DNA of 64,000 nt. It comes from Immundisolibacterales bacterium. Lineage in GTDB: Bacteria; Pseudomonadota; Gammaproteobacteria; HK1. The stretch covers positions 62,001 through 126,000 of the forward strand of contig JAPOPW010000030.1 in the NCBI GenBank assembly GCA_026712715.1. The letters are read 5' to 3'. The notes beneath the pieces were generated by a model that saw only the letters and a list, made by a program, of their open reading frames with translations, was not told the origin of the DNA and searched no databases. Both the position numbers and the translations under genes were made by a program. Below, piece after piece: positions 6,157 through 63,433 of the stretch (positions are counted from its first letter, which is position 1; each line of letters opens with the position of its first letter).

Positions 6157-6965
6157 ACCCGGCATCTCCCTGGCCGGACGACGGACCGGACCGCGCTCCG
6201 CTGGTCGCCTTCGCCGGGACCCTGGCCGATGCGGCCCGGGCCGTAGCCCGCCGCCATTTCCGGGCGTCGGTCGAGGTCGAGTACAAGGCCGACGGATCAC
6301 CGGTCACCCGCGCCGATCGGGAGGTGGAGGAGACCCTGAGCGGCCTGATTCACGAGCGCTTCGCCGAGCATGCGGTCACCGGCGAGGAGCTCGGCCGCAC
6401 CGGCCCGTCCGACGCCCGCTGGCGCTGGGTGCTGGACCCCATCGACGGGACCAAGAACTTCGTGACCGGCCGTCCCCTGTTCGGATCGCTGATCGCGTTT
6501 CTCGACGGCGACCGACCCATTCTCGGCGTGATCGAGTCCCCCGCCCTCGGGGAGCGGTACGTCGGCGCGGCGGGCGACGTGACCCGCTTCGACGGGCGCC
6601 CCTGCCGCACGAGCGGGTGTACGCGGCTCGGTGACGCGCGGATGAGCGCCACCACTCCGGACCTCTTCGATTCCGACGAGCTGGTCGCGTTCGACGACGT
6701 GAGCTTCGCCGCCCGGATCCGGACCTTCGGGGGCGACTGCTACCAGTATGCGCAGCTCGCCGCCGGCCACCTCGACCTGGTGGTGGAGGCGGAGCTGGCT
6801 CCCTACGATCTGCTCGCTCTCGCACCCGTGGTCACGGGCGCGGGCGGCGTAATCACCGACTGGCAGGGGGAGGCGCTGACCGCCGCCTCCGGTGGCCGGA
6901 TTCTGGCCGCGGCGACCCCGGAGCTCCACGCGGAGGTGCTCGTCAGGCTGCAGGACGTCGTTTGA
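6153..6965 (+). CDS. inositol-monophosphatase-family phosphatase, HisN-like
   Basis: A 270-residue member of the Mg-dependent, Li-sensitive phosphatase family. The metal site is visible as GEELG, DPIDGTKNF and, near the C terminus, a GDCYQYAQLAAGHLDL segment followed by LAPYDLLALAPVV. The GDCY form of the last motif matches histidinol-phosphatases of the HisN type, which would place it at the penultimate step of histidine synthesis. A general inositol-phosphatase role cannot be excluded. It starts inside the thiD stop codon and its own stop overlaps the next start. A second, SuhB-like member of the family lies at 37798-38556. Confidence 0.78.
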   Translation: MNPASPWPDDGPDRAPLVAFAGTLADAARAVARRHFRASVEVEYKADGSPVTRADREVEETLSGLIHERFAEHAVTGEELGRTGPSDARWRWVLDPIDGTKNFVTGRPLFGSLIAFLDGDRPILGVIESPALGERYVGAAGDVTRFDGRPCRTSGCTRLGDARMSATTPDLFDSDELVAFDDVSFAARIRTFGGDCYQYAQLAAGHLDLVVEAELAPYDLLALAPVVTGAGGVITDWQGEALTAASGGRILAAATPELHAEVLVRLQDVV

Positions 6966-7423
6966 AGCGTCTGCTCGTCGTCTACCACACGCAGACGGGG
7001 CACACGGAGGCGATGGCCCGCGCGGTCGTGCGCGGCGCGCGGCATCCCGAGGTCGCCGGAGTCGAAGTTCGTCTCCGCCGTGCCATCGAGGCCGGCCTCG
7101 GCGACCTCCTCGAGGCGGACGCGGTGGCGATCGGCACGCCCGAGAACTTCGGCCAGCTCTCCGGCGGCATGAAGGATTTTTTCGACCGCACCTACTATCC
7201 CGCCCAGGGGAAGCTCGAAGGGCTCGCGTACGCGGCGTTCATCAGCGCGGGAAACGACGGACGGGGGGCGCTCGAGGGGCTTCGTCGAATCGTTCGCGGA
7301 TACCCGCTGCGAGAGGTGCGCGAGCCGATCATTGCCCGCGGGGGGATCGATGCCGGGGTCCTGGAACGATGCGAGGAGTTGGGCCTCGCGCTTGCCGCCG
7401 GCCTCGAAGCGGGCATCTACTAG
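6962..7423 (+). CDS. flavodoxin-like FMN-binding protein
   Basis: A 153-residue flavodoxin-fold protein. The phosphate-binding loop is HTQTGHTEAMA at residues 9-19. The second flavin loop is GTPENFGQLSGGMKDFFDR, a pattern of the NAD(P)H-dependent oxidoreductase branch. The start is a TTG at 6962 overlapping the stop of the previous gene, and no other start fits the conserved N-terminal strand LLVVYHT. It is the last gene of the thiD-hisN-like-flavodoxin operon. It presumably carries electrons; the partner is not visible here. Confidence 0.78.
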   Translation: MKRLLVVYHTQTGHTEAMARAVVRGARHPEVAGVEVRLRRAIEAGLGDLLEADAVAIGTPENFGQLSGGMKDFFDRTYYPAQGKLEGLAYAAFISAGNDGRGALEGLRRIVRGYPLREVREPIIARGGIDAGVLERCEELGLALAAGLEAGIY

Positions 7424-7453
7424 CCCGGAAATCTACCCAACTTTCGTCGCATA

Positions 7454-7480
7454 CTCGAATAACTCTGCGAGTTATTCGAG
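7454..7480 (+). repeat. tandem hairpin 1 (12-bp perfect stem, 3-nt loop)
   Basis: The arm CTCGAATAACTC (7454-7465) pairs without a mismatch with GAGTTATTCGAG (7469-7480) around the loop TGC. It is noticeably more AT-rich than its surroundings. It has the same skeleton as hairpin 2, ten bases downstream. The four stem pairs that differ between the two are all compensated. No run of T follows, so a plain intrinsic terminator is not a good explanation. Confidence 0.9.
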
Positions 7481-7490
7481 ATGGCTGTTT

Positions 7491-7519
7491 ACCCGAAAAG
7501 TTCTCCGAACTTTTCGGGT
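7491..7519 (+). repeat. tandem hairpin 2 (13-bp perfect stem, 3-nt loop)
   Basis: The arm ACCCGAAAAGTTC (7491-7503) pairs perfectly with GAACTTTTCGGGT (7507-7519) around the loop TCC. Aligned with hairpin 1 over 27 bases, the stem differs at pairs 2/26, 7/21, 9/19 and 10/18, and in each case both partners have changed so that pairing is kept. Confidence 0.9.
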
Positions 7520-7523
7520 TTGG

Positions 7524-7680
7524 GCGTCGAGACGGCGCTGTGACAGGCCGCACGGACCGAGAGACGCTGAAGGCGTAGTCGACACTAGCGCTACGCGCTG
7601 TCGAAGCGGCTTGAGGGAGTACGGCCAGTCACAGCGCATGGATCGGCGTCCGCAGCAGGAAGTTGGTGAGATTTGCGGGC
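7524..7680 (+). repeat. dispersed repeat family 1, copy 1
   Basis: About 150 bases resembling 26941-27090 (inverted) and, in its last 80 bases, 63155-63250 (inverted). It has imperfect inverted arms at 7535-7549 and 7623-7637 (14 of 15 pairs). These enclose a conserved GAGGGAGTACGGC core and are followed by a conserved tail: GATCGGCGTCCGCAGCAGG, then GGTGAGATTTGCGGG. This copy is intergenic. Confidence 0.78.
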
Positions 7681-7872
7681 TAGCGGCGAATCGCGGCCGG
7701 TTCCGGCCTCGTGTCCTGCAGGTGCGGGACCGGTGCCCGGACTCGGCGGGCCGGCATCACCGGGACCGGTGACGTTCGGGTGCGGCGGGTGCCGGGCGAG
7801 GGCTGCCGAACCGCGCCCGAGCCCGGCGTGCCCGCCTCGACGCCGCCGCACGACGCGCGGGGAAGCGCACGC

Positions 7873-26896: not shown

Positions 26897-26924
26897 GGCC
26901 GGTCGGGTGGAGAGGAGGAGACGC

Positions 26925-28100
26925 ATGCGGACACGGGGGTGGTTTGCCCACATATTCCACCGGTTTCCTGCTTCGGCCGCCGATGCACGGGCAGCGACGC
27001 GCCGTACTCCCTCGAGTCGCTTCGACGCCGAGTCGATCGCGCCTTCGACGACTTGCGGCCCGCGCGGCCCGTCACTGCCGCGCCTCGGCGTCTTCGCGAC
27101 GACGATTGCCGGGGTATGCGCGCTTGCCGGTACGCTGTGGGTGATTGCGCCCGCGGCGTGGTCCGCCGACGGGCCGCTGGACGAAGTGCCCGCGGTACGG
27201 TCTTTCCTGCGCGAGGTCGAGTCCCGGCACGGACTGGACCGTGCCTGGCTGCAGGGGCTCTTTCGGGAGGCTCGCCGGCAGCAGTCGATTCTGGACGCGT
27301 TCAGCCGGCCGGCCGAGGCGAAGCCGTGGCATGCCTACCGCAAGATCTTCGTGACCCCGGACCGCATTCGTCGCGGAGTGGAATTCGCCCGCGAGCACCG
27401 GGCGGTGCTGGAACGGGTGACGGCGCGGTTCGGGGTGCCGGCCGAGACCGTGGCCGCGATCATCGGGGTCGAGACCTTCTACGGGCGGTACACCGGCCGC
27501 TACCGCGTCATCGATGCCCTGTCGACACTCGCGTTCTTCGCGCCCCGTCGGGGCTCGTTCTTCCGCCGCGAGCTCGAGGAGTTCCTGCTGATGCTCAACG
27601 AGGAGGATCGGGCGAGCGCCGACCTCAAGGGCTCCTACGCCGGGGCGATCGGAGTCCCGCAATTCATCCCGAGCAGCTATCGGGAGTACGCGGTCGACTT
27701 CGATGGAGACGGTCGTCGAGACCTCGTGGGAAGCGTGGACGACGCGATGGGGAGCGTCGGTTCCTACCTCCATCGTCACGGGTGGCGTGAAGGGGAGCCG
27801 GTCGCGTTTCGCCTGGCCGCGACGGACCCGGGACGCGCGGACCCGCTCGCCGGGGGGCTTCGGCCGGAGCGGGTCTGGGGGGACCTCGAGGAGGTCGGCC
27901 TCAGCGTTGCCGAGGCGGACCCGAAGCCGCTTCCGGACACCCCGGTCACTCTGGTGCGTCTCGACGGCGCGCGAGGGACGGAGTACTGGGTCGGCCTTCC
28001 CAACTTCTACGTGATCACGCGGTACAACCACAGCGCGCTGTATGCGATGGCCGTCCATCAGCTCGCGGTCGAGATCCGGCGGGGCGGCGAATCGGGGTGA
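26925..28100 (+). CDS. mltB: lytic murein transglycosylase B with a repeat-encoded N-terminal extension
   Basis: A 391-residue enzyme that cleaves the glycan backbone with formation of anhydromuramic ends. It carries ETVAAIIGVETFYGRYTGRY, whose IIGVETFYG holds the catalytic Glu, as well as GSYAGAIGVPQFIPSSY and the DFDGDGRRDL calcium-site segment. The signal-like helix (LGVFATTIAGVCALAGTLW) begins only at about residue 60. The preceding Arg-rich residues are encoded by family 1 repeat copy 2 read in antisense. A strong GAGGAGG site (26912-26918) fixes the ATG at 26925, and no usable start lies between the repeat and the signal helix. Confidence 0.9.
   Translation: MRTRGWFAHIFHRFPASAADARAATRRTPSSRFDAESIAPSTTCGPRGPSLPRLGVFATTIAGVCALAGTLWVIAPAAWSADGPLDEVPAVRSFLREVESRHGLDRAWLQGLFREARRQQSILDAFSRPAEAKPWHAYRKIFVTPDRIRRGVEFAREHRAVLERVTARFGVPAETVAAIIGVETFYGRYTGRYRVIDALSTLAFFAPRRGSFFRRELEEFLLMLNEEDRASADLKGSYAGAIGVPQFIPSSYREYAVDFDGDGRRDLVGSVDDAMGSVGSYLHRHGWREGEPVAFRLAATDPGRADPLAGGLRPERVWGDLEEVGLSVAEADPKPLPDTPVTLVRLDGARGTEYWVGLPNFYVITRYNHSALYAMAVHQLAVEIRRGGESG
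26941..27090 (-). repeat. dispersed repeat family 1, copy 2 (inside the mltB frame)
   Basis: Read on the minus strand this is the counterpart of 7524-7680: arms at 27066-27079 and 26990-27003 (12 of 14 pairs), then GAGGGAGTACGGC, CATCGGCGGCCGAAGCAGG, and GGTGGAATATGTGGGCAAACC at the end. It lies between the ribosome-binding site/start codon and the signal sequence of mltB and keeps that frame open. Confidence 0.78.
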
Positions 28101-62155: not shown

Positions 62156-63160
62156 CTACTCGCCCGTCAGAGTCGCGATCATCAGCGCCTTGATGGTGTG
62201 CATCCGGTTCTCGGCCTGATCGAAGACGATGGAAGCGTCGGAATCGAACACTTCGTCGGTGACCTCCATCGCGTCGAGGCCGAAGCGTTCATGAATGTCG
62301 CGCCCGACGGCAGTCTCGAGGTCGTGAAATGCCGGAAGGCAGTGCAGGAAGCGGGTTCGTGGGTTCCCCGTCGCGGCCATCACGGATCGGTTCACCTGGT
62401 AGGGCCGCAGCTGTTCGATGCGCTCCGCCCAGATCTTCTCCGGCTCGCCGAGGGACACCCACACGTCGGTATAGACGAAGTCACAGCCCGCGACCGCATC
62501 CGCGATCCCCTCGTCCACCGACACCCGCCCGCCCGCGGCCGCGGCGGCCGCTTCGGCCTCCGCCCGGTTGGACGGCCCGGGCCAGCACGCGCGCGGGGCC
62601 GCGACCCTGACGTCCATGCCCATCGTGGCCGCGGCCATCACCAGGGAGGCGGCGGTGTTGTTCGATGCGTCACCAAGGAATGCGAGGCGAACGCCCGCGA
62701 GGTCCCCGGAGCCGTGCTCGCGCATCGTCATGAGATCGGCGAGCGCCTGCGTCGGGTGGTGCTCGTCGGTGAGGCCGTTCCACACCGGAACCCCCGAGTG
62801 AAGGGCAAGCTCCTGCACGGATCGGTGGGCGTGACCCCGGTACTCGATGCCGTCATAGAGCCGGCCGAGCACCCGGGCCGTGTCGCGCATCGATTCCTTC
62901 GCGCCGAGATGGGTGCCGGAGCTGTCGATATTGGTCGTGTGCGCCCCCTGATCCGCGGCCGCGACCTCGAATGCGCAGCGCGTGCGGGTGGAGCTCTTCT
63001 CGAAGATGAGCGCGATGTTGCGCCCCTCGAGACGCCGGTCTTCTGCTCCCGCGCGCTTCTCGCGCTTGAGCCGTTCGGAAAGATCGAGGACGTGCAGGAT
63101 CTCCGCCGGCGCGAAGTCGCCGATACGAAGGAGGCTGCGCCCCTGAAGGTTGACCCGCAT
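62156..63160 (-). CDS. argF: ornithine carbamoyltransferase
   Basis: A 334-residue OTCase that makes citrulline in arginine synthesis. The carbamoyl-phosphate site is EKSSTRTRCAFEVA, then HLGAKESMRDTARVLGRLYD (core KESMRDTARV), DEHHPTQALADLMT, and the ornithine/Cys loop FLHCLPAFHD. The ATG at 63160 and the AGGGAG ribosome-binding site at 63172-63177 lie inside repeat family 1 copy 3. The conserved protein begins within ten residues of the start, so the start is secure. Confidence 0.95.
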   Translation of the reverse strand: MRVNLQGRSLLRIGDFAPAEILHVLDLSERLKREKRAGAEDRRLEGRNIALIFEKSSTRTRCAFEVAAADQGAHTTNIDSSGTHLGAKESMRDTARVLGRLYDGIEYRGHAHRSVQELALHSGVPVWNGLTDEHHPTQALADLMTMREHGSGDLAGVRLAFLGDASNNTAASLVMAAATMGMDVRVAAPRACWPGPSNRAEAEAAAAAAGGRVSVDEGIADAVAGCDFVYTDVWVSLGEPEKIWAERIEQLRPYQVNRSVMAATGNPRTRFLHCLPAFHDLETAVGRDIHERFGLDAMEVTDEVFDSDASIVFDQAENRMHTIKALMIATLTGE

Positions 63161-63250
63161 GTTTCACCATTCTCCCTTTGCGGCCGCCGATTCACGCTCG
63201 GTGGCGGTCCGTGCTCCCTCGAGCCGCCGCGACGGCGCAGCACGAAGCCG
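63155..63250 (-). repeat. dispersed repeat family 1, copy 3 (overlapping the argF start)
   Basis: On the minus strand it reads GGCTCGAGGGAGCACGG, then AATCGGCGGCCGCAAAGGG, then GGTGAAACATGCGGGTCAACC at the end (twenty-one letters only if the first G is counted). These correspond block by block to copies 1 and 2. The ATG of argF is the ATG in this last block. The outer half seen in copies 1 and 2 is not clear here. Confidence 0.7.
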
Positions 63251-63433
63251 GGTGCCGAGGGCCGCTTGACGCGTGCCCGGCGAAGGTCCCGCTCCGCCGC
63301 TTCGGCGTATCGTCCCTCGCGGCGAAGTCCGGCGCGAAGGGCGCGTCGATGGACAAGGCGCTTTTGCGCGATGGCCGGGGCGCGCGATGTTTAGCACAGT
63401 TGCCGGGCGGCACCAAGGCCGGGCGGGTTATCG
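63251..63433. other. gap between argF upstream repeat and the PGPGW gene
   Basis: About 180 bases with no gene. It must hold the argF promoter on the minus strand and that of the PGPGW gene on the plus strand. Neither could be identified with confidence, and no ARG-box-like AT-rich palindrome was seen. Confidence 0.6.

Follow-up and report, generated by a model that had tools for sequence, protein, structure and literature searches.

The repeat found three times in the 64,000-nucleotide stretch analyzed here (the window, from an Immundisolibacterales bacterium) belongs to a real and apparently undescribed family of miniature inverted-repeat transposable elements (MITEs), whose ends are of IS1380 type and whose structured interior is conserved to an unusual degree. 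Judging from the sequences, these non-autonomous elements are very probably mobilized in trans by IS1380-family transposases. They are small, carry terminal inverted repeats (TIRs), show a target-site duplication, and are dispersed with empty orthologous sites, as is typical of MITEs. The sequence-only reading of the window had proposed a new-looking dispersed structured repeat family without transposon features. Its first part holds: the copies are many, covariation is strong, no Rfam family matched at or above the gathering threshold, and no published description naming the element or its TIR was found in the literature searched. The absence of transposon features does not.

The ordered blocks shared by copies 1–3 lie where that reading had placed them, and perfect matches to GAGGGAGYACGG in the window are confined to the three copy sites. 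However, the spans assigned to the copies (7524-7680, 26941-27090, and 63155-63250) are too short and comprise only the element core. Inverted repeats of 24 bp, CTAGCCCGGAAATCTCACCAACTT ... AAGTTGGTGAGATTTCCGGGCTAG, delimit the full copies, and copy 1 therefore extends from 7420 to 7683. Contrary to the remark that no TIRs were seen, those of copy 1 are 24 bp long and near-perfect, with CTAG at the start and end. The copies and their parts are as follows.

7420-7683, plus strand: copy 1, complete 264-bp element whose 5′ part carries two extra hairpins (fuzzy TIR match; fold z -11.2; empty site in the same-genus genome G002)
7420-7443, plus strand: 5′ TIR of copy 1, CTAGCCCGGAAATCTACCCAACTT, including the left target duplicate CTAG at 7420-7423
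7454-7480, plus strand: extra hairpin 1 of copy 1, CTCGAATAACT-CTG-CGAGTTATTCGAG type with a 3-base loop (folds of full copies)
7491-7519, plus strand: extra hairpin 2 of copy 1, ACCCGAAAAGTTC-TCC-GAACTTTTCGGGT (folds of full copies)
7535-7637, plus strand: core stem 7535-7549/7623-7637 around conserved purine-rich loops and GAGGGAGTACGG (helix 4 in alignment A2, covarying)
7660-7683, plus strand: 3′ TIR of copy 1, AAGTTGGTGAGATTTGCGGGCTAG, including the right target duplicate CTAG at 7680-7683
26943-27126, minus strand: copy 2, decayed 184-bp element in the mltB signal-peptide region (covariance-model match G000:C6:88943-89126)
~63150-63347, minus strand: copy 3, more decayed, in front of argF; 5′ boundary approximate (BLASTN)

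The two extra hairpins of copy 1 are missing in 184-bp elements. The TIRs of copy 2 are partly decayed, with CAAG and CAAA as its outermost bases. Copies 2 and 3 are old, with fold z-scores of -2.2 and 0.0, as compared with -11.2 for copy 1.

The sequence-only reading had named absence from orthologous loci as a sign of mobility, and the element is indeed absent at all three window sites in the same-genus genomes (G001 and G002), so that the three copies represent insertions. Its placement of copies 2 and 3 at mltB and argF is correct. The genes concerned are listed below.

6962-7423, plus strand: flavodoxin-like gene (Pfam Flavodoxin_1), ending ...EAGIY*, with its stop codon within the CTAG target of copy 1
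26907-28100, plus strand: mltB-like lytic transglycosylase gene (Pfam SLT_2, E 1.9e-98), the 5′ part of which holds copy 2
62156-63160, minus strand: argF-like ornithine carbamoyltransferase gene (Pfam OTCace, OTCace_N), downstream of copy 3
63158-63160, minus strand: apparent argF start ATG within the 3′ TIR of copy 3, GGTGAAAC-ATG-CGGG (compared with the G001 and G002 leaders)

The flavodoxin-like gene ends in ...GGCATCTACTAG, and copy 1 starts exactly after its CTAG, which contains the stop codon. The empty site in G002 reads ...ATCTACTAG, where the gene ends in ...GGGATCTACTAG and is followed by unrelated sequence. In G001, 39 bp separate the gene from the next aligned block, as opposed to approximately 440 bp in the window. 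Since G001 also lacks another 176 bp or so to the right of copy 1, only the left junction is clean. At the copy 2 locus, a stretch of 225 bp in the window is matched by 31 bp in G002 and by 51 bp in G001. The mltB reading frame is unbroken across the insertion, and the element-encoded residues precede a new hydrophobic stretch, which could still be usable as a signal peptide.

Copy 3 is missing at argF in both G002 and G001, whose native leaders read CTTCTTCC-ATG-TCC-GTCAACC and CTTCTTCC-ATG-CCT-GTAAACC, respectively. The window leader instead reads GGTGAAAC-ATG-CGG-GTCAACC. Because this ATG sits inside the 3′ TIR, copy 3 appears to supply the argF start codon together with the upstream GGGAG stretch, and the element would thereby provide both the start codon and the ribosome-binding region. 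The reading frame and the conserved VNL that follows suggest that this ATG is the start in use. The 3′ TIR consensus, GGTGAGATATGCGGG, also contains ATG; insertion can therefore give a downstream gene a start codon.

Copies exist well beyond these three. In the 5.05-Mb genome to which the window belongs (82 contigs), BLASTN with copy 2 retrieved copy 1 (E 2.4e-13), copy 3 (E 4e-7), and more than 10 further dispersed copies, while a covariance model returned 28 rows, or approximately 27 loci, at E <=0.01. Five contigs of this assembly (C10, C34, C50, C55, and C74) end within or beside near-identical copies, so that contig-edge copies are truncated, and recent copies are probably under-counted. 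One-ended fragments with only about 50 bp of the element 3′ end were also observed (L033:1501-1560, equivalent to G000:C69:71135-71186, L043, and L058), which may originate from deletion or an assembly break.

The wider census combined covariance-model and BLAST searches, both of which limit how many candidates are scored in each genome. The covariance model detected the element in 29 of 369 sampled genomes of the class Gammaproteobacteria, representing approximately 19 families; 22 genomes from 16 families scored below 1e-10, these E-values being rough. The exact core pattern was found in 104 stretches of genome contigs, with hosts including Sedimenticola, Chromatiaceae, Ectothiorhodospiraceae, Lysobacterales, Rhodanobacteraceae, Methylocaldum, Thioalkalivibrio, Thauera, and Azoarcus, as well as metagenome-assembled genomes nominally from Deltaproteobacteria and Gemmatimonadetes. 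Exact-pattern searches of IMG/VR and BLASTN searches of phage and plasmid records gave no match, and a phage or plasmid origin was set aside on that ground. In Sedimenticola (e.g., L158, L192, L203, and L212), many copies adjoin a palindromic repeat, TTTTTCAACATCCTGC / GTTGAAAAATGCCATTTTTCAAC, which is perhaps a preferred target.

The TIR has the form YTAR|CCCGSAWWTCTCACM, in which the first four bases are the target duplication. The sequence-only reading had seen no such duplication, but a 4-bp YTAR duplication has statistical support. In a collection of 147 TIR-bounded elements of 49-322 bp, the left and right 4-mers agreed in direct orientation at 444 positions, as compared with 413.6 +/- 5.6 after shuffling (0 of 2000 shuffles reached this value), and in inverted orientation at 431 positions, as compared with 417.1 +/- 5.8 (31 of 2000); because the collection includes related copies, these shuffle counts are not strict probabilities. 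The direct signal exceeds the inverted one, although the palindromic CTAG raises both, and the non-palindromic flank pair TTAG/TTAG occurs in four cases. The palindromic nature of CTAG makes the duplication only weakly provable for any single copy, and copy 2 is a further difficulty, as its flanks are CAAG and CAAA. At two loci (L209 and L210), the element adjoins a second element through one shared CTAG, the arrangement that insertion of one copy into the CTAG of an older copy would produce.

The link to IS1380 is provided by Azoarcus taiwanensis, which carries a complete 1720-bp IS1380 element (L272; NF033539 transpos_IS1380, 391.9 bits, the cut-off being 180). Over 20/20 bp, its ends are identical to those of the 184-bp element that this genome also carries, and both show the local CACAC variant. 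Furthermore, among the PF13701 matches in G002 are complete 1639-bp copies of a related insertion sequence, whose ends read CTAG|CCCGGATATTGCAYGAA and whose duplications are CTAG or CTAA, and 12-13 positions are common to the element TIR and this insertion sequence. Some findings speak against the link: the IS1380 copies seen in the window's own genome are partial, G025 had no PF13701 match although it is rich in TIRs (95 pattern matches), and a PF13701 search of 14 further element hosts found none in 7. In such hosts, the partner may have been lost, may be unassembled, or may be too divergent. Two other leads were rejected: the other DDE transposases found in the own genome lie at contig ends, and G013 and G015 contain IS1380-like elements whose ends are unrelated. 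The TIR identity suggests a mechanism in which an IS1380-type transposase would recognize CCCGSAWWTCTCACM, insert the element at YTAR (mostly CTAG), and duplicate this 4-bp target. The interior is not an internal-deletion derivative of IS1380, as only the TIRs align with L272. It would rather be a module that is conserved in its own right and forms, together with the TIRs, one long hairpin in which conserved purine-rich internal loops are kept while lineages gain or lose hairpins at fixed points.

The fold of the interior is supported by covariation. Both the enclosing stem of copy 1 (7535-7549/7623-7637) and the corresponding stem of copy 2, described from the sequence alone, are present, and so are the two compensated exchanges: 7536/7636 C-G corresponds to G-C at 27079/26990, and 7539/7633 T-A to A-T at 27076/26993. 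An alignment of 27 sequences from many hosts (A2), with pairs assigned by RNAalifold, contains 57 pairs; 91.4% of the cells pair, and two-sided (compensatory) changes occur in 39 of the 57. The covariation value of 0.433 exceeds those obtained when the 3′ letters were shuffled (0.18) or the partners were slid (0.05-0.08). Together with the own-genome E-values, these controls rule out an artefact of G+C content or chance. Two-sided change affects 20 of 24 pairs in the interior helix, and 90-95% of the cells are paired in the TIR helices. The unpaired interior columns are purine-rich, with a mean identity of 0.80, as compared with 0.77 for paired columns. This equal conservation indicates a conserved fold rather than a mere palindrome. 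The structure is likely maintained by selection acting on one folded strand, to judge from these alignments; the selected strand could be RNA, or single-stranded DNA during transposition or replication.

The commonest length across genomes is 184 bp, found in 67 of the 147 TIR-bounded elements. In the own genome, copies have additional hairpins at fixed points, each near-perfect and closed by a 3-base loop, and the inner arm is missing in L100. The same TIRs also bound a second core type of 168 bp and several forms of 56-115 bp. The 168-bp type (L096, L097, and L210) forms a conserved, nearly continuous long hairpin, and L101 looks like an internal-deletion form of it. Further interiors of 70-305 bp with CCCGCATTTCTCACC ends occur among L069-L118, such as L115-L118 of G013 and G015; the ends of the IS1380-like elements resident in these two genomes are unrelated to these CCCGCATTTCTCACC ends.

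The main neutral rival to selection on the fold is quasi-palindrome correction. In E. coli mutagenesis, template switching during replication copies changes between the arms of long imperfect palindromes; compensatory changes would then be unselected, and the element would be an ordinary MITE with a passive interior. Consistent with correction, several interiors that are unrelated to one another but share the TIRs all show strong self-complementarity, in some cases nearly perfect, and in the own genome the extra hairpins have perfect stems and loops of 3 bases. However, correction would erase interior loops, yet the loops remain unpaired and as conserved as the paired columns, and the conserved loop sequence is found across many families. 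The persistence of these loops disfavors correction as the sole cause, and we regard this explanation as rather unlikely. Another possibility, which we entertain tentatively, is that the interior acts chiefly as RNA of the GAGGGAG strand, as an mRNA stabilizer or RNase III substrate like Correia/NEMIS, with insertions being tolerable or useful. In 93 of 95 copies, the listed strand folds more stably than the complementary one, the mean difference being 19 kcal/mol, and the conserved internal loops are rich in purines. According to crude gene calls on the 95 copies, 7 overlap predicted genes, and copies prefer gene 3′ ends, with 17 lying between convergent and 4 between divergent gene pairs. 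By the same calls, however, orientation relative to codirectional genes is unbiased (10 sense and 13 antisense). Composition explains part of the strand difference (-7 in shuffles), and G-U and A-C are about equal (48 and 38) among strand-neutral pairs.

Two further explanations place the repeat in other classes. A REPIN/RAYT-type system, in which inverted REP pairs are moved single-stranded by a Y1 tyrosine transposase, would fit a dispersed, intergenic, hairpin-forming element, some copies of which are just 56-115 bp long. It is nevertheless very improbable, considering that the ends match IS1380 TIRs, that 4-bp target duplications are supported whereas Y1 transposition makes none, and that one TIR by itself is not palindromic. 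The position of copy 3 immediately at the argF start would suit a cis-regulatory, riboswitch-like leader RNA of argF and other genes, but the sites of the copies are unrelated to each other, argF of the same-genus genomes lacks the element, and the element is TIR-bounded without an Rfam match. The empty sites exclude a leader RNA as a general explanation, and we consider it extremely improbable. Returning to the IS1380-mobilized MITE, its interior might be a selfish structured RNA or single-stranded DNA module, selected for its fold across repeated host transfer and wearing local IS1380 ends, a proposal that we put forward with considerable reserve. If true, it would describe a parasite of a transposon whose spread is driven by shape, not protein.

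The interiors of classical bacterial MITEs are usually treated as passive. Here, a covarying architecture is kept over approximately 19 gammaproteobacterial families as well as Azoarcus and Thauera and is linked to a named transposase family, making it testable whether, and why, the fold of a non-coding transposon is under selection. In one case, at argF, a transposon end appears to have been turned into the start codon of a biosynthetic gene. The covariance model can also be used to annotate many unexplained intergenic repeats.

Among known systems, the bacterial MITEs Correia/NEMIS, ERIC, RUP, YPAL, and RPE are likewise short, non-coding, and TIR-bounded, with target duplications and high copy numbers; their transcripts are predicted to form long stem-loops, and in-frame gene fusions have been reported (PMC2229807). 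The descriptions of these classical families come from single genera or from groups that are closely related (PMC2229807), and their target is TA, whereas the present element is G+C-rich, typically 184 bp long (range 56-322 bp), has IS1380-type ends and a YTAR target, and is set apart by its modular hairpins and by a strongly covarying interior kept over approximately 19 families and into Rhodocyclales, a broad host range. CREE, known from Neisseria only, resembles it in its inverted ends, conserved core, and length variants, and affects neighboring genes, with a core role through IHF and RNase III (PMC2649163); its ends, however, differ. The piggyBac elements have CCC-starting ends and TTAA-like 4-bp duplications, also CTAA and TTAG, with IS1380 as the outgroup (PMC10813416). 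They share such ends and 4-bp duplications with our element by way of IS1380 but are eukaryotic and mostly autonomous. The closest likeness is to the IS1380-family insertion sequences themselves (NF033539, PF13701), whose TIR (identical at 20/20 bp in A. taiwanensis) and 4-bp YTAR duplication the element shares; unlike them, it has no transposase gene, and its interior is unrelated.
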